In this document: positions 3,872 to 17,182 of the stretch, piece after piece | Position numbering within the stretch: the first letter of the stretch is position 1 | Layout of the letters: each line of letters opens with the position of its first letter | Source of the DNA: a virus | Reading direction: 5' to 3' (one strand) | DNA length: 24,846 bases | IMG/VR virus record: IMGVR_UViG_3300037427_001348 | Span: 1 to 24,846 of that record | Notes under the pieces: model-generated | The model's database searches: none | The model's input: the letters and a program-made list of their open reading frames with translations, nothing else | What the model was told of the DNA's origin: nothing | Program-made: the position numbers and the translations under genes

Positions 3872-4969
3872 TCAGTTCACCTCCTTATCGTCAAGTTGAA
3901 AATCAGCATCTACTTTATCATACAATTCAAGGAATGATTGCTTAGTATCATCATCAAATCTATTAACACATACTTGGATTGCCTTTGCTTTATTATTAAA
4001 GATGCTATATGCACGAAGAATGTGAACTAAACGACGAGTACTAATAATCTCATCCACACCACCATCATAGAATGTTTTACGGATGATGTCACCCCAATCA
4101 ACCAATCTCTTACAGAAATCAGTATCAGTAACACCCAATTGAGCAGCAATACCACCTAAGATTCTATTCTCAATAGTTGGTGATGGATAATCTTGCTCAA
4201 ATGTTACAGGGAACCTTTCAAGGAATGCTTCATTAAGAACATTAGTTCCTATGAACCTACCATCATCAGAACCTTTACCCTTTGTATTGGCAGTTGCAAT
4301 AACATTGAATCCTACCGCAGGTCTGACCACTCTACCGATTTTTTTGAGGAACACCCCTTTACCTTCAAGTATGGATTGGAGGCATAAGATTTTGTTACTA
4401 GCCAAGTCAATCTCATCGAGTAACAAGACTGCTCCTCGTTCAAGTGCTTCAACGACAGGTCCGTTATGCCAAACAGTTGACCCATCCACAAGACGGAACC
4501 CACCAATAAGATCGTCTTCATCAGTTTCAATAGTAATGTTTACACGAATAAGTTCTCTACCAAGTTGAGCACATGCTTGCTCTACAGAAAATGTTTTACC
4601 ATTTCCAGATAGTCCAGTGATAAAAGCAGGATAAAAAACATTGCTTTGTATGATTTTTTTAACATCTTTAAAACTACCAAATGGAACAAAAATATCATCC
4701 TTTTCAGGAACTAGATTTTGAATTTCTGAAGGAATTACAGCAGGTGCACTGAATGATTTTTCAATATTCTCAACTGCTTTAGTTGTTACCTCTAAATTCC
4801 ACTTACCTTTAGATACTTTATACTTCTGTATCTTTTTAGAAACAGTTGCATAACCAATATCATTCATAGCACAAAATGCTTTAACATCAGCAGCAGTAAA
4901 TTCTGTTCCATATGTTTCTCTTAATCCATCAACTGCCTGTTGCTCAGTCATTTTCAATTCAAAAGCCAT
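3872..4969 (-). CDS. CobS/MoxR-like AAA+ ATPase
   Basis: A 365-aa AAA+ ATPase of the MoxR/CobS clade. Walker A is GLSGNGKT (119-126), Walker B is VLLLDEID (181-188), the sensor-1 Asn is in ATANT (about 228), and the arginine-finger-like motif NEAFLERF is at 246-253. Residues 1-75 form an N-terminal helical region. Cyanophage homologues are usually named CobS after cobaltochelatase, but no CobN is present here. MoxR-type ATPases typically work with a VWA-domain protein to remodel or activate targets. Such a partner is encoded at 7247-9457. A terminator and a -10-like box lie just upstream, so it probably starts its own transcript. Family is secure; a cobalamin role is doubtful. Confidence 0.9.
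   Translation of the reverse strand: MAFELKMTEQQAVDGLRETYGTEFTAADVKAFCAMNDIGYATVSKKIQKYKVSKGKWNLEVTTKAVENIEKSFSAPAVIPSEIQNLVPEKDDIFVPFGSFKDVKKIIQSNVFYPAFITGLSGNGKTFSVEQACAQLGRELIRVNITIETDEDDLIGGFRLVDGSTVWHNGPVVEALERGAVLLLDEIDLASNKILCLQSILEGKGVFLKKIGRVVRPAVGFNVIATANTKGKGSDDGRFIGTNVLNEAFLERFPVTFEQDYPSPTIENRILGGIAAQLGVTDTDFCKRLVDWGDIIRKTFYDGGVDEIISTRRLVHILRAYSIFNNKAKAIQVCVNRFDDDTKQSFLELYDKVDADFQLDDKEVN
3877..3887 (-). promoter_or_regulatory. Full-length Shine-Dalgarno sequence
   Basis: The minus strand reads TAAGGAGGTGA, complementary over all 11 bases to the common bacterial 16S rRNA 3' end (TCACCTCCTTA). It lies within the last codons of the CobS-like gene (Lys-Glu-Val-Asn-stop) and ends 9 nt before the ATG of the DUF3310-like gene. 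Most genes here have short or no Shine-Dalgarno, so this one stands out. Confidence 0.85.
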
Positions 4970-4993
4970 TAGGTTGTTTGTTTAATTGAATAT

Positions 4994-4999
4994 ATTATA
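4994..4999 (-). promoter_or_regulatory. -10-like promoter element before the CobS-like gene
   Basis: The minus strand reads TATAAT within TATTATAATATATTC, about 25 nt before the ATG at 4969 and 10 nt past the terminator stem. No TTGACA-like -35 is found at the normal distance, where the terminator hairpin lies instead. It may be a -10-only or activator-dependent promoter. In AT-rich DNA a chance TATAAT is possible, but the position between terminator and gene supports it. Confidence 0.55.
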
Positions 5000-5003
5000 A
5001 TAC

Positions 5004-5028
5004 AAAAAAGAGGGTCATATAGACCCTC
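5004..5028 (-). terminator. Rho-independent terminator
   Basis: On the minus strand, GAGGGTC, a 5-nt loop, and GACCCTC form a perfect 7-bp stem followed by TTTTTT. It begins 13 nt after the stop at 5041 and closes the operon that starts with the VWA gene. Confidence 0.88.
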
Positions 5029-5040
5029 GTGGACACTTAT

Positions 5041-5283
5041 TTAATTGTCTCTTGTCTTTTTAAAAAACTCACCTAAAGACGATTGTAATTGACCTTCATT
5101 TTCTTCAGGATCTAACTTATCATATCCCTTCATCTTTTTCCATTTACCATATAGTGCTTGCAATATCCAACTAGAGGAAAGACTATCTGGTCCTTTCTCT
5201 AGTAGTTCAAGATGCCTTTCATTACTGGTGTAAGATTTGTACTCTTCCCTCCAATTGGAATCATCATAAAGTTTGTTTGTCAT
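5041..5283 (-). CDS. 80-aa hypothetical protein with SSSWIL motif
   Basis: A soluble, charged 80-residue protein with no recognisable domain. The N terminus is NWREEYKSYTSNERHLELLE. The centre holds SSSWILQALYGKWKK (about 36-50), a likely helix rich in aromatic and basic residues. The C terminus is acidic, then FFKKTRDN. Its ATG overlaps the stop of the Lys-rich gene (ATGA), and a terminator follows its own stop, so it is the last gene of the operon. SSSWIL also occurs near the C terminus of the nucleotidyltransferase. Function unknown. Confidence 0.75.
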   Translation of the reverse strand: MTNKLYDDSNWREEYKSYTSNERHLELLEKGPDSLSSSWILQALYGKWKKMKGYDKLDPEENEGQLQSSLGEFFKKTRDN

Positions 5284-5789
5284 TTTTTGTAAGCAAAGGT
5301 TTTTCCTTTAATTTTAGTATCACCTTCTGGTGAAGTTTGACCTGGTTTAAATTTACCTGCTTTTATTCTTTTAACGTTTTTACCTTGACTATCTTTGCCG
5401 AGTCCACCTTTTCTAGTTGCTGATACTGTACCAGTTTTTTTAGTTTGTGTCAAGACCGCATCCTGACCATACTTCTTACCTAAAGATTTAATTGCTTTCT
5501 TAAATGCCTTCTTTCCCTTTTTACCAGAACTGACAACATGACTTCTCTCTTTAACCTTTGTGGTCTTACCAGTCTTATCATCCTTCTCATCCCATCTTCC
5601 AGATACCTTAGTAGCACCAGGAAGACCCTTACCCTTGATATCCTTATCTAACTGCTTTGCTCTTGCCTTATTTTCTTTCTTTGATTTGTCACCACGACTT
5701 CCAGAGATGACTGCTATACCCCCTTTATCTGATTTAGATTTTATTCTACTCAGACTACTTTCTTCTAAAAATTCCTTAAAAGTTTTCAT
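5280..5789 (-). CDS. Lys-rich basic protein, candidate internal head protein
   Basis: The start is taken at ATG 5787-5789 (169 aa); a GTG four codons upstream also fits. The N terminus MKTFKEFLEESSLSRIK closely resembles the capsid-targeting sequence of T4 internal proteins (T4 IPIII begins MKTYQEFIAEA), and LEE-S fits the gp21 protease rule (L/I-x-E, cut after Glu). The rest is extremely rich in Lys and Gly with almost no hydrophobic core, as expected for a DNA-binding packaged protein. An AATAAATA late-type box lies 21 nt upstream. I infer that it is loaded into the head, cleaved and perhaps injected with the DNA. The sequence proves only the motif and the charge; other small phage proteins share this N-terminal motif without known packaging. 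Confidence 0.75.
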   Translation of the reverse strand: MKTFKEFLEESSLSRIKSKSDKGGIAVISGSRGDKSKKENKARAKQLDKDIKGKGLPGATKVSGRWDEKDDKTGKTTKVKERSHVVSSGKKGKKAFKKAIKSLGKKYGQDAVLTQTKKTGTVSATRKGGLGKDSQGKNVKRIKAGKFKPGQTSPEGDTKIKGKTFAYKK

Positions 5790-5809
5790 TATCAGTGACA
5801 CTTTTTTAT

Positions 5810-5817
5810 TATTTATT
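5810..5817 (-). promoter_or_regulatory. Possible late promoter box (AATAAATA)
   Basis: The minus strand reads AATAAATA, one base from the T4 late box TATAAATA. It overlaps the stop of the 48-aa gene and ends 21 nt before the ATG of the Lys-rich protein. This would fit late expression of a packaged protein. The motif is short and AT-rich, so chance is a serious alternative. Confidence 0.35.
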
Positions 5818-5959
5818 CTTCTTCCTCATCATACCCATCAATTGGAATTCCCATTGATTTATATTTCAATTGGTTCCTAAGAAAAAGAACCTCCTCTCTG
5901 AGAAGAAGATTCTCTTGCTCAAGAATTTCTATATGATCTTGGTAGATAATTACGCTCAT
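5813..5959 (-). CDS. 48-aa coiled-coil micro-protein
   Basis: ATG 5957-5959 opens a 48-codon frame ending at TAA 5813-5815, filling the otherwise empty space between purC and the Lys-rich gene. Residues ~9-32 (HIEILEQENLLLREEVLFL and on) form an almost ideal leucine-zipper helix with hydrophobic residues at a/d spacing. The tail is acidic (GYDEEEE). No Shine-Dalgarno is evident. The coiled-coil pattern is very unlikely in random AT-rich sequence, so I regard it as a gene. It may dimerise or bind a partner; the partner is unknown. Confidence 0.65.
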   Translation of the reverse strand: MSVIIYQDHIEILEQENLLLREEVLFLRNQLKYKSMGIPIDGYDEEEE

Positions 5960-5975
5960 GAAATTATTTAATCAT

Positions 5976-6674
5976 TTAAGGATTGCTTAATTTTAATTTC
6001 TGTAAAATATCTTTATAAGCATCTACTATATTTCCTTCACCCTTCCTAAACAAATCTTTGTCAAAACTTTTACCTTCTTTCCAAAGACGCATTCCATCAG
6101 GTGATAGTTCATCAGCAAGGAGTAAATTTTTATCAGAATCATAACCAAACTCCAATTTAAAATCAACAAGTGTAAGACCTATTTCTTTAAAGGTCTTTGA
6201 TAAGATACCATTAACTTCTCTAGCAGTCTGTTCCATATCTCTTAATGGATAGTTACCCATTGCCCATATACGATTCTCTGTTAATAATGGGTCATTCTTT
6301 TCATCATCCTTCAAATACCACTCAACCAATGGCCACCCAAACTCAGTTCCTTCTTCAATGTTTGTCTCTCTGACTATAGAACCAGCAGCAACATTCCTCA
6401 CTACAACTTCTATAGGTATAATATCAACTCTCCTACAACACATAATTGCTACTGGATGCATGTTGATATAGTGAGTGCGTATACTATACTTCTCTAAATG
6501 TTCAAAAAGTAATTTAGAGATTTCACAACAAACCTGACCTTTACCTTCAGGAAAATCTACCATCCTACCATTACCAGCAGTAACCTTGTCCTCATATTGT
6601 ATAAGAACTTCTTCAGGTTCAGATGTACTGAATAATGTCTTGACTTTTCCTTGTATGATTTGTGTATTAGTCAT
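5976..6674 (-). CDS. purC: SAICAR synthetase (PurC)
   Basis: PurC joins aspartate to CAIR using ATP, a late step in making the purine ring. The 232-aa protein has the family landmarks in order: GKVKTLF (9-15), DKVTAGNG (29-36), VVRNVAAGSIVR (91-102), FKLEFG (172-177) and ADELSPDGMRLW (187-198). I start at ATG 6672-6674, which overlaps the previous stop by 8 nt and has AAGGGGG about 10 nt upstream. A longer in-frame start (6722) would add 16 residues without family resemblance. Length matches bacterial PurC (~237 aa). Cyanophages often carry purine genes, presumably to feed nucleotide supply during infection. Identification is secure. Confidence 0.95.
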   Translation of the reverse strand: MTNTQIIQGKVKTLFSTSEPEEVLIQYEDKVTAGNGRMVDFPEGKGQVCCEISKLLFEHLEKYSIRTHYINMHPVAIMCCRRVDIIPIEVVVRNVAAGSIVRETNIEEGTEFGWPLVEWYLKDDEKNDPLLTENRIWAMGNYPLRDMEQTAREVNGILSKTFKEIGLTLVDFKLEFGYDSDKNLLLADELSPDGMRLWKEGKSFDKDLFRKGEGNIVDAYKDILQKLKLSNP

Positions 6675-6855
6675 TGAGATTAAACCCCCTTTGTTGTTTC
6701 CACTGATTGTACATCTGACCATATATCATACCCTCATGCGATTTCAAATCTCTACCTGAAAGTATATCTATCTGTTGCTCAGATAAATCTTTTCTATTTT
6801 CCTTCAAGTAATTATTCTCCCAATTTGGAAGTTCTTCTTTCATTTTTGAATTCAT
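6667..6855 (-). CDS. 62-aa hypothetical protein
   Basis: A small hydrophilic protein rich in Glu, Lys and Asn. The sequence runs MNSKMKEELPNWENNYLKEN to a Gln/Trp-containing C terminus (YGQMYNQWKQQRGFNLND). No known domain, signal or membrane segment is visible. Its ATG overlaps the stop of the 130-aa gene (ATGA), and its end overlaps the PurC start by 8 nt. The packing supports a real gene; function unknown. Confidence 0.7.
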   Translation of the reverse strand: MNSKMKEELPNWENNYLKENRKDLSEQQIDILSGRDLKSHEGMIYGQMYNQWKQQRGFNLND

Positions 6856-7244
6856 TTGTTTTTCCTCAAAGGTACATCAATAGTCCATGATGATGATTCT
6901 AATTTAACTAAATCAAAGTTTTTCTTAAACTCTTTTTCTCTTTCTTTCTTTTCCTTCTCCATTGTTATGTCAAGAGATTCAATAGTTCTCTCACCATAAT
7001 GAGGTTTGTTTGGATCCTTTACTTCCATATAATCTAAGATAGCACCATCTACCATATAGTAGAGTGTATCCCAAGTGATATTATCTCTTAGTATGACTGC
7101 GATTCTATCCACATCATTCTCATCAAGATACTCACCTTTGTTTATCTCTGCAGAGTAATCTCCATATTGAGTCAAGAGTTTTGCTCTGATCTCTACCAAC
7201 TCATTAAGGTTGATAGTAATCTTCACGTCATCGTAAATTGCCAT
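6852..7244 (-). CDS. 130-aa hypothetical protein
   Basis: A soluble acidic protein. The N-terminal part (MAIYDDVKITINLNELVEIR) looks alpha/beta, a central part includes RIAVILRDNITWDTLYYMVDG, and residues ~94-110 are a run of Lys and Glu likely to form one long helix. It ends ESSSWTIDVPLRKNK. I do not recognise a family. The start follows the VWA gene stop by 2 nt, with a GGTGG about 9 nt before the ATG. It is probably made together with the VWA protein; any functional link is inference. Confidence 0.78.
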   Translation of the reverse strand: MAIYDDVKITINLNELVEIRAKLLTQYGDYSAEINKGEYLDENDVDRIAVILRDNITWDTLYYMVDGAILDYMEVKDPNKPHYGERTIESLDITMEKEKKEREKEFKKNFDLVKLESSSWTIDVPLRKNK

Positions 7245-7246
7245 AA

Positions 7247-9457
7247 TTAAGCCACCAAGTCAACAAATTCACCAAGAATCTTTTTATTTAATTTCTTGGT
7301 TTTAAGAGATTTAATAAAAGCACGTTTGATCTCTGTTTTAGATGCATCATCCTTTACTTCAAACTCATCATCATTTGATAAATCATTTGATGATAATCCA
7401 AAGTAAGTGTGATAACCAGAGTTCTTAATAGAGAAGCACTTCTCTTTTCTCCACCTTTTGTGTATTGTATCATATTCTGAACCATGTTGACAATACCTTC
7501 TAATAAATGATCCTGCATCTCTTGAACTCATTACTCTAATACCAATAAAATTACTATCTGGAAAATTATCTCTTAGATTTCTAAGATATACATCTGTAGA
7601 CTCATGATAACTCCATGACAATCTATATGTTTTACCAGTTTTACGATCACGTAAAAATGTATGATCTCCAGTTTCATTAGTTCCTAGATAGGGAGAATTT
7701 TCCCAGTCTCTTTGAACTTCACGATGATATCTTAGTGGGTATGCTTCACCATCAGTTAAAATAACACATTGAACCTTTTCAACTTTATTCTTCTCTTTAA
7801 ATTGTGGAATGATTTGATGAAGAGCTATTAATGATTCATTCAAAGGAGTTCCAGATAAAGAAAGTGATGATGGAGAATGATACCTAACACTATTACGGAA
7901 ACCATAAGCAACACGAAAAATATTTTTCATTTGTTGATCTAATGTTTTTCCATTTACATTACTTGTAAACATATTCAACAAAGAGAACCATCTACACACA
8001 TCCAATAAACCTTCCTTTGGTTCATATGCACAATCTTTCAGTTCACTATTATCATATCCAGGATGATTATTAGTGAAAGCATAAACATCAAAAGGTATAT
8101 TAACTTTCTTACAAAACCAAAGTAAGTTATAAAGTTGCTTTAAAGTATCTATCATTACATCAGACATTGACCCTGACCAATCAAGAATAAAAATTAACCC
8201 ATGATTTTTACCTTCAGGAATTACAGTTACTTTTTTGAAAAGGTCTTCATTGTACTTGTAAGTATGAAGTTTTGATGTATCCAAAACACCAGTCTTTGCA
8301 ACACTAGCACGAGCATATGCACTAGCAGATTTCTTACACTCAAACTCCTTTACAAGATAATTAACTTCTTTTTGTGCAGACTTTTTAAATTTTTCAAATT
8401 CTTTATCAACACCTTTAAGACCATGAACTGGCATCCATCTATAATATTTTGCCTCCATTTCCTCCCGATTTATTTCATCATCATCTTCTGCCTTAGCAGA
8501 ATCACTTAATAGATACTCATCCCAACATTGCTGACATTCATCATGAATATGCTTATTAGAAATAAGAACCTCTTCCAATTTTAACTTAGGAATTTCAACA
8601 TATACATTATCTCTACCACCTTTACCAACCAAATCTTTTATAGCATTTGCTAATGCATCAGCAGTTTTTACTTCTGGTTCAGAATTCTCACTTCCCCTAG
8701 TTCCTGCTGATGTAGGTTTTTGAGGAGAACCAGTATTAGTACTATCAGATTGTTGCTCATCAAATCCCTGCTCAGATGATTCTGGTTGATGGTCAAGGTC
8801 AACTTCTTCCTTTTCCTCAGTCTTCTCAGAATTATCTAATGATGTCCCACCACCTTGAGTAGGTTGCATTTCAACATTTCCTTCTACTTCCTCTTGAGCA
8901 TCTTCTTCTTGTTGCTGCTTACAATAATCATAGAGAACTTTAGAAGCATCTAATACTTCTTCAAAGGTTTCACACTTTTCAACTAAAGAGACAATCTCCT
9001 TCTCAGCATCTGAAAAAGATATATTAACGAACGAACCAATCTTAAAGTATAAATTAACCCTATCAGCAAGATTAAGAGTATCAATATCTTTATCATCTAT
9101 CTCAAAAAAATCATTATCATTGAGTTCATTATATCCCCTAAAGAAAGTTTTTGCAATACCAGCATACTTTCTTCTCATCAACTTTTCAATTCTAGCATCC
9201 TCAACAATATTCACAAATGGTTGTGGAATCTTATGAGTCTTTGTCCAATCAACATCTGGTGTGAATAATGCATGTCCTACTTCATGTGCCACCAAAGAAT
9301 CATATATGTTGTTAGATGCCTTTTCCCATACTGGTAATGTCAAAACACGAGTATGAACATTAAATTCTGCTGTCTCTACTTGCTTATGCTCTACTACAAG
9401 GTCTTCAGTAGCAAGTAATTTTGCGAGTTGTGACTTGATTTCGTGCTTAACTGCCAT
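7247..9457 (-). CDS. CobT-like protein: HExxH peptidase-like domain plus VWA domain
   Basis: A 736-aa protein in three parts. Residues 1-180 hold a zinc-peptidase-like motif HEVGHALF (58-65) followed by VNIVEDARIEKL (82-93), where a Glu could be the third metal ligand. Residues ~181-265 are an acidic Gln/Ser-rich linker with little order. The C-terminal part is a von Willebrand A domain with DWSGS (426-430), a later SGTPLNES threonine and VILTDGE, which together make a complete MIDAS metal site. This layout matches CobT and related partners of MoxR ATPases, and a MoxR/CobS-like ATPase is encoded at 3872-4969. Cyanophage copies are often called CobT or peptidase. Substrate unknown; remodelling of a phage or host protein is more plausible to me than cobalt insertion. 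Confidence 0.88.
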   Translation of the reverse strand: MAVKHEIKSQLAKLLATEDLVVEHKQVETAEFNVHTRVLTLPVWEKASNNIYDSLVAHEVGHALFTPDVDWTKTHKIPQPFVNIVEDARIEKLMRRKYAGIAKTFFRGYNELNDNDFFEIDDKDIDTLNLADRVNLYFKIGSFVNISFSDAEKEIVSLVEKCETFEEVLDASKVLYDYCKQQQEEDAQEEVEGNVEMQPTQGGGTSLDNSEKTEEKEEVDLDHQPESSEQGFDEQQSDSTNTGSPQKPTSAGTRGSENSEPEVKTADALANAIKDLVGKGGRDNVYVEIPKLKLEEVLISNKHIHDECQQCWDEYLLSDSAKAEDDDEINREEMEAKYYRWMPVHGLKGVDKEFEKFKKSAQKEVNYLVKEFECKKSASAYARASVAKTGVLDTSKLHTYKYNEDLFKKVTVIPEGKNHGLIFILDWSGSMSDVMIDTLKQLYNLLWFCKKVNIPFDVYAFTNNHPGYDNSELKDCAYEPKEGLLDVCRWFSLLNMFTSNVNGKTLDQQMKNIFRVAYGFRNSVRYHSPSSLSLSGTPLNESLIALHQIIPQFKEKNKVEKVQCVILTDGEAYPLRYHREVQRDWENSPYLGTNETGDHTFLRDRKTGKTYRLSWSYHESTDVYLRNLRDNFPDSNFIGIRVMSSRDAGSFIRRYCQHGSEYDTIHKRWRKEKCFSIKNSGYHTYFGLSSNDLSNDDEFEVKDDASKTEIKRAFIKSLKTKKLNKKILGEFVDLVA

Positions 9458-9627
9458 AAGTCTTTTCGTTTGTTGAACCTATTATAAGACGAAACCCCTC
9501 GATTTGAGGGGTTCTGTAGACGCTTTATCAACTGTCTGCGTCTTTCTCTTGCAGCACGTAGTGCCTGTGGTTTAAGTTTTCGTTTCGGTGGCTTACCCGA
9601 ATTGTGTTGCCAGTTAGGTTTGTTCAT
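9394..9627 (-). CDS. Arg/Lys-rich small protein, 77 codons
   Basis: The frame begins MNKPNWQHNSGKPPKRKLKP and continues with a strongly basic helix, ALRAARERRRQLIKRLQ, so nucleic-acid binding is plausible. The start overlaps the oxygenase stop by 4 nt. From about residue 38 the frame runs through a hairpin, a TATAAT box and 64 nt of the VWA gene in another phase. The last ~22 residues are therefore constrained by another gene and may be dispensable. The N-terminal part looks like a genuine protein; the exact functional C terminus is uncertain. Confidence 0.6.
   Translation of the reverse strand: MNKPNWQHNSGKPPKRKLKPQALRAARERRRQLIKRLQNPSNRGVSSYNRFNKRKDLWQLSTKSSHNSQNYLLLKTL
9481..9513 (-). promoter_or_regulatory. 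Hairpin followed by a -10-like box before the VWA gene
   Basis: On the minus strand, AACCCCTC and GAGGGGTT form an 8-bp stem with a 5-nt loop (9493-9513). Only three T follow, so it is a weak terminator at best. TATAAT lies at 9481-9486, 24 nt before the VWA start. The arrangement resembles the two terminator/-10 pairs at 4994-5028 and 17183-17228. The hairpin lies inside the Arg-rich gene. Confidence 0.5.
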
Positions 9628-16938: not shown

Positions 16939-17169
16939 TTAAGACTCCTCCTTTTCTTTCTTATCCATGGTATTGAATTTTGCTTTTTGTACGTTTGATT
17001 GACCTTCACCACTACTAAACTTCTTCGTCATCTTACTGACTTGAAGTTTTCTTTTTTCTCTAGCCTTATCTCTTTGGGCAGCAAATCTTTGTCTAGCAAT
17101 TTCTGCTCTGGATTGTTGTCCAGTCTCAGTGCTTTCCAGTTCTTCAGAAAATTCTCTAAAAGACTTCAT
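16939..17169 (-). CDS. Small basic protein with capsid-targeting-like N terminus
   Basis: The start is set at ATG 17167-17169 (76 aa); a GTG four codons earlier is less likely. The N terminus MKSFREFSEELESTETG matches the pattern of the Lys-rich protein at 5280-5789 (MKTFKEFLEES) and of T4 internal head proteins (MKTYQEFIAEA). The rest is a long charged helix rich in Arg, Lys, Gln and Ala (AEIARQRFAAQRDKAREKRK) and ends NTMDKKEKEES. It is the first gene after the capsid terminator, so a packaged internal protein is a reasonable inference. No proof of packaging can be read from sequence. Confidence 0.72.
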   Translation of the reverse strand: MKSFREFSEELESTETGQQSRAEIARQRFAAQRDKAREKRKLQVSKMTKKFSSGEGQSNVQKAKFNTMDKKEKEES

Positions 17170-17182
17170 TACTCTATACACT

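Follow-up and report, generated by a model that had tools for sequence, protein, structure and literature searches.

A MoxR-type ATPase and a metallopeptidase-like VWA protein as a candidate remodelling pair of T4-like cyanophages

Introduction

What does a gene resembling cobS do in a cyanophage? The gene is commonly listed among the auxiliary metabolic genes of these phages, on the view that it enhances vitamin B12 synthesis. The cobS gene has been listed as cyanophage core (Sullivan et al., 2010, PMC3037559), and an earlier account of the viral cobST pair reported it to be common among tailed viruses and to belong to the core genome of cyanophages, read it as a CobN-dependent chelatase that hijacks host CobN, and called the label "peptidase" a mistake (Liu et al., 2021, PMC8651126). 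Pairs of MoxR and VWA proteins, including a viral one in tail assembly, have been reviewed (Kaur et al., 2020, PMC7159879); no paper treating MoxR, VWA, phage and CobT together was found in the literature. The window analysed here, which is the entire 24,846-base IMG/VR virus record IMGVR_UViG_3300037427_001348, is a fragment of a T4-like cyanomyovirus, as judged from its gene content, and carries such a pair (Table 1). New in the present analysis are the conservation of the peptidase motif across lineages and its absence from aligned CobTs, a test of co-divergence, evidence against an adaptor role of the intervening genes, and the recombination genes found around the related loci.

Table 1. 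Coordinates, strand and basis of assignment of the features of the pair in the window
Feature	Position	Strand	Basis
MoxR/CobS-type AAA+ ATPase, 365 aa (phrog_249)	3872..4969	-	AAA_5, PHROG, conserved motifs, solved relatives
HExxH-VWA protein, 736 aa (phrog_459 'peptidase'), distant CobT relative	7247..9457	-	PHROG, invariant HExxH and MIDAS, structure model
N-terminal metallopeptidase-like domain, residues 1-196 (H58, E59, H62, E86)	8870..9457	-	61-sequence alignment, model pLDDT 89.3, fold matches
Small basic ORF (phrog_3309) upstream of VWA gene	9394..9627	-	PHROG match, position across loci

Organization and co-divergence of the gene pair

The two minus-strand ORFs bear out the original prediction of an ATPase paired with a VWA protein that carries HEVGH and a MIDAS, and their PHROG matches (E=1.8e-137 for the ATPase, E=4.5e-272 for the VWA protein) exclude chance as the source of both gene identities. 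In the phage collection, both queries gave equal tallies in each class of cyanophage record (365 Synechococcus, 61 Cyanophage and 24 Prochlorococcus), these being totals per query and not pairings matched record by record. Among 68 IMG/VR loci with both genes, order and strand are identical throughout, and regular separation of the two genes, which had been named beforehand as evidence against the prediction, was not seen in the loci examined.

Between the ATPase and VWA genes of the window lie sm130, sm62, purC, an ORF of the SAM-lyase family and sm80. Small proteins encoded here had been proposed as adaptors or substrates of the pair, a role rejected here on the ground of their variability: each of the five genes recurs between the pair in only 1 to 6 of the 68 loci, and in 17 of the 68 the gap is shorter than 100 bases. 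The position of purC between the pair is incidental. Adjacent or almost adjacent copies of the two genes further occur in Pelagibacter phage HTVC008M, Stenotrophomonas phage DLP6, Ochrobactrum phage OC, the Klebsiella phage-plasmid pJN2-26 and Vibrio phage ICP2. In 60 of 64 loci the VWA gene is directly preceded by a small ORF of the phrog_3309 type; in the window its PHROG match spans the first 37 residues and the ORF overlaps the start of the VWA gene, with which it possibly shares a transcription unit.

In partial Mantel tests controlling for flanking genes, the distances of the ATPase and the VWA protein correlate at 0.67 (18 loci) and 0.72 (32 loci), p 0.001, and the same test of each member of the pair against its own immediate neighbour gives 0.14 and -0.12. 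The positive control, the gp46-gp47 complex known from T4, reaches 0.88. Judged from these distances, the ATPase and the VWA protein co-diverge beyond the flanking genes, and they may form a complex.

As a separate observation, the SAM-lyase-family ORF (5280-5801, minus strand; PF23780, 55.5 bits) begins with MKTFKEFLEE, which is retained by relatives in other loci and which we take to resemble the capsid-targeting sequence of T4, so that the protein could be packaged and injected. Another minus-strand ORF, at 16939-17181, has an internal MKSFREFSEELE start similar to this possible capsid-targeting motif.

The ATPase and the VWA domain

The AAA_5 domain (65.5 bits, Pfam), Walker A (GLSGNGKT) and Walker B (LLLLDE) motifs and, in the alignment columns, conserved sensor and arginine-finger positions place the ATPase among MoxR-type AAA+ ATPases, and its nearest solved relatives are Midasin, CobS and NorQ. 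Against the curated CobS model TIGR01650 it scores 69.1 bits, below the equivalog cut-off of 558.55. Kayvirus SA5 was rejected as a further carrier of the pair: its ATPase matches, but the adjacent ORF185 lacks both HExxH and any match to a VWA family.

The MIDAS residues of the VWA protein (D426-x-S428-x-S430, T537 and D569) are invariant in 58 aligned homologues. In the full-length structure model (mean pLDDT 77.7), the VWA domain best matches the MIDAS domain of MDN1 (Z 16.2), NorD (15.8) and Rea1 (14.8), against a general VWA background of about 11-12. The complete MIDAS and this predicted fold close to NorD and Midasin are what is expected of a MoxR-partner VWA protein, and together with the ATPase motifs they sustain the predicted MoxR/VWA layout. 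No Pfam model, the CobT models PF06213 and PF11775 included, matches the VWA protein at E 0.1; for the metallopeptidase-VWA family DUF2201 (PF13203), phage proteins gave no Pfam match and 58 genomes gave a single match, below cut-off.

The HExxH domain

The HEVGH stretch comprises residues 58-62, and H58, E59, H62, N83, E86, D87 and R89 are invariant in the 58 aligned homologues. Across 61 aligned N-domains with identity down to about 21%, H58, E59, H62 and E86 are kept throughout, and HExxH is present in every IMG/VR locus that covers the N-terminus of the VWA protein. The IMG/VR scan, the source of most loci, did not use HExxH as a search pattern; the bacterial-genome scan did, so that loci from the latter are biased towards the motif.

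Modelled alone, the N-domain is predicted to place residues 49-65 and 79-97 in helices, and the HExxH with the downstream Glu on the second predicted helix corresponds to a gluzincin signature, in which zinc would probably be bound. Fold matches include ArdC (Z 6.9), ZMPSTE24 (6.3), minigluzincins (5.2-5.9), BlaR1, PprI and Wss1. These scores are weak (all Z below 8, best Foldseek E 0.05), the top rows are mostly zinc metallopeptidases, and Mycobacterium transcriptional-regulator entries (Z 5.6-5.8) are interspersed among them. The modelled fold is thus consistent with a metallopeptidase, and falls short of proof. In the VWA protein of Stenotrophomonas phage BUCTxx99 (L181:4879-6864), REVST replaces HExxH, so that both histidines are gone, and the ATPase partner is retained. 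This is an independent loss of the motif; because the pair is kept despite REVST, proteolysis may be dispensable.

Relationship to CobT

In one alignment, the same columns read H-E-x-x-H in 19 of 19 proteins from mobile elements and [SAG]-x-A-L-[RK] in 11 of 11 CobTs, ten of which come from alphaproteobacterial genomes and one from a Sphingomonas plasmid. E86 is still conserved in these CobTs despite the absence of HExxH, and CobT retains an E-x-x-R-[IV]-E stretch. A regular-expression screen of 30 canonical CobT ORFs found 29 without HExxH anywhere; the exception is L138, where HEPAH occurs at offset 264 within an extended CobT frame of 951 aa that lies outside the alignment. At the level of columns, absence of the motif from CobT rests on the 11 aligned proteins, and the homologous stretch is displayed for 15 of the 30 screened. 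In the tree, CobTs and T4-like proteins form separate, well-supported groups, and several branches are long. Because HExxH occurs on both sides of the midpoint root, the simplest reading is a single loss in the CobT line, for a tree whose root is not established. The solved CobT structure (9uka) was absent from the rows of the fold search, which is no argument against relatedness.

Relatives on plasmids and integrative elements

Relatives of the HExxH-VWA protein are found in ICE-like loci, IncC plasmids and phage-plasmids. In the plasmid collection, 1455 records match the Vreelandella VWA protein, and 921 of these are typed as conjugative. The term "infection-specific" in the original prediction was therefore too narrow, since such relatives also reside on conjugative plasmids and ICE-like loci.

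Genes for RecT/Bet and an exonuclease adjoin the HExxH-VWA gene in seven of eight cellular or plasmid loci examined (L114, L115, L116, L117, L118, L156 and L157). The carriers are Pseudovibrio, Desulfallas, Pelotomaculum, Vreelandella, a gammaproteobacterial MAG, an IncC plasmid and a Citrobacter plasmid; several of these loci share one arrangement and are not independent. No RecT or exonuclease was found for G151, which has the HExxH form with DUF3150. Elsewhere, DnaE lies near the pair in phage-plasmids and Rhizobium phage RHEph10, and Toprim and DnaB-like genes lie near it in ICP2. In T4-like phages, gp47-gp46 come before the pair and the clamp gene after it; this neighbourhood is a matter of conserved synteny among replication genes and does not count as independent evidence. 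By a rough null, a replication or recombination gene would stand within one or two genes in 12-22% of cases in pJN2-26 and in 5-9% in IncC, so that each neighbourhood is weak on its own. The link to recombination genes is suggestive across lineages, and is not statistically established.

Five Firmicutes loci found with the Desulfallas protein (L174-L178) encode MoxR/VWA proteins without HExxH, and blastp, a weaker test than the Pfam scans of the HExxH loci, detected no adjoining RecT or exonuclease. Two of them contain single ORFs with both Walker A and MIDAS motifs (L176:8423-10465 and L178:8275-10365), possibly fused ATPase-VWA proteins.

Proposed function and alternatives

With a probability of roughly 0.55, the pair is one module, a MoxR-type AAA+ ATPase acting with a VWA partner whose N-domain is zinc-metallopeptidase-like, and this module remodels a DNA-bound complex and does not chiefly serve as a cobaltochelatase. 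On the model of NorQ-NorD and Midasin, the VWA/MIDAS domain would capture a target protein, the ATPase would remodel the captured target, and the HExxH domain may clip it or act on it in some other way. In several unrelated elements, related pairs adjoin genes of replication or recombination, so that the most likely target would be a protein complex on DNA undergoing these processes; a role in recombination-dependent replication is the leading inference. Remodelling or cleavage, as originally predicted, is favoured over cobalamin synthesis by the conservation of the motif, the lack of CobN in phage records and the co-divergence; restriction to infection and the adaptor role of the intervening proteins have had to be given up.

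It is unlikely that the CobS- and CobT-like proteins of the phage take over host CobN and so raise cobalamin or corrinoid synthesis during infection, even though they share ancestry with CobS and CobT, and, in the control set, Synechococcus elongatus, a cyanobacterium, matches PF02514, a family that also covers a magnesium-chelatase subunit. The ATPase fails the curated CobS cut-off (69 vs 558 bits), no CobT model matches the VWA protein, and HExxH is kept where CobT lost it. As predicted, no CobN (PF02514) lies near the pair: there is no match in the window, which says little because the window is only a fragment, and none in eight complete phage records, where co-occurrence had been set beforehand as evidence against the prediction. 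E. coli has no PF02514 match by the control list, yet the pair is present on many phage-plasmids of E. coli and Klebsiella, and no class II ribonucleotide reductase scored above cut-off in seven phage records. Two of the five HExxH-bearing bacterial genomes (G001, G004) contain CobN and the other three lack it; Pseudovibrio (G001) has a canonical CobT (334 bits) with CobN and, separately, the HExxH form (32 bits). Since the phage pair could still use host CobN, the cobaltochelatase reading is weakened, and no more than that.

Rather doubtful, too, is that the pair only remodels, the HExxH fold providing a scaffold for binding or for a metal site and no proteolytic activity. The domain does persist in CobT and in the BUCTxx99 protein after loss of the motif, but the full set of HExxH and Glu is invariant in all other sequences examined. 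The intact HExxH would suit a protease that cleaves or unfolds a host protein (of defence, RNA polymerase or photosynthesis) in favour of infection, and ArdC and PprI, two proteins of metalloprotease fold from anti-restriction and the DNA-damage response, are among the fold rows. This is distinctly improbable, as the module is conserved over hosts whose proteomes differ greatly, from cyanobacteria to Firmicutes, and PADLOC gave no match. Still less probable is that the pair builds or matures a virion component in the manner of an archaeal-virus MoxR-VWA pair, despite the tail-assembly precedent (cited in Kaur et al., 2020, PMC7159879) and the core status of the pair in virion-building phage: HExxH-VWA relatives with a MoxR ATPase sit on IncC and other plasmids and in ICE-like loci, and the neighbours are replication and recombination genes, not structural ones. 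Because the plasmid and ICE relatives are distant, a specialised role of the phage copy is still conceivable.

Should the pair prove to be a machine for remodelling with peptidase activity, the B12 interpretation would be mistaken for a core gene that almost every T4-like cyanophage carries, and experiments could be aimed at a machine that has been little studied and whose relatives sit on resistance plasmids. Only tentatively, the idea may be extended to T4-like phages, phage-plasmids, ICEs and IncC plasmids sharing an ATP-driven metallopeptidase module that clears or remodels complexes in recombination-dependent replication, with bacterial CobT as a domesticated derivative in which the peptidase site was lost.

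Comparison with known systems

The viral cobST cluster of Liu et al. (2021) is the same gene pair as that described here; the difference is that HExxH proves intact and conserved here. Canonical CobS and CobT are homologous to the two phage proteins, whereas the aligned CobTs have no HExxH and the phage proteins fall short of the curated models for CobS and CobT. The RecT/Bet-exonuclease-DUF3150-VWA loci of ICE-like elements and IncC plasmids share the HExxH-VWA protein and, where one was identified, a MoxR-type ATPase; they differ in DUF3150, which was not identified in the cyanophage loci, and in the N-domain, which is only about 21-24% identical to that of the window protein. NorQ-NorD and Midasin likewise combine a MoxR-type ATPase with a VWA partner or MIDAS domain and give the best VWA fold matches, and the phage VWA protein is distinguished from them by its additional N-terminal HExxH domain.
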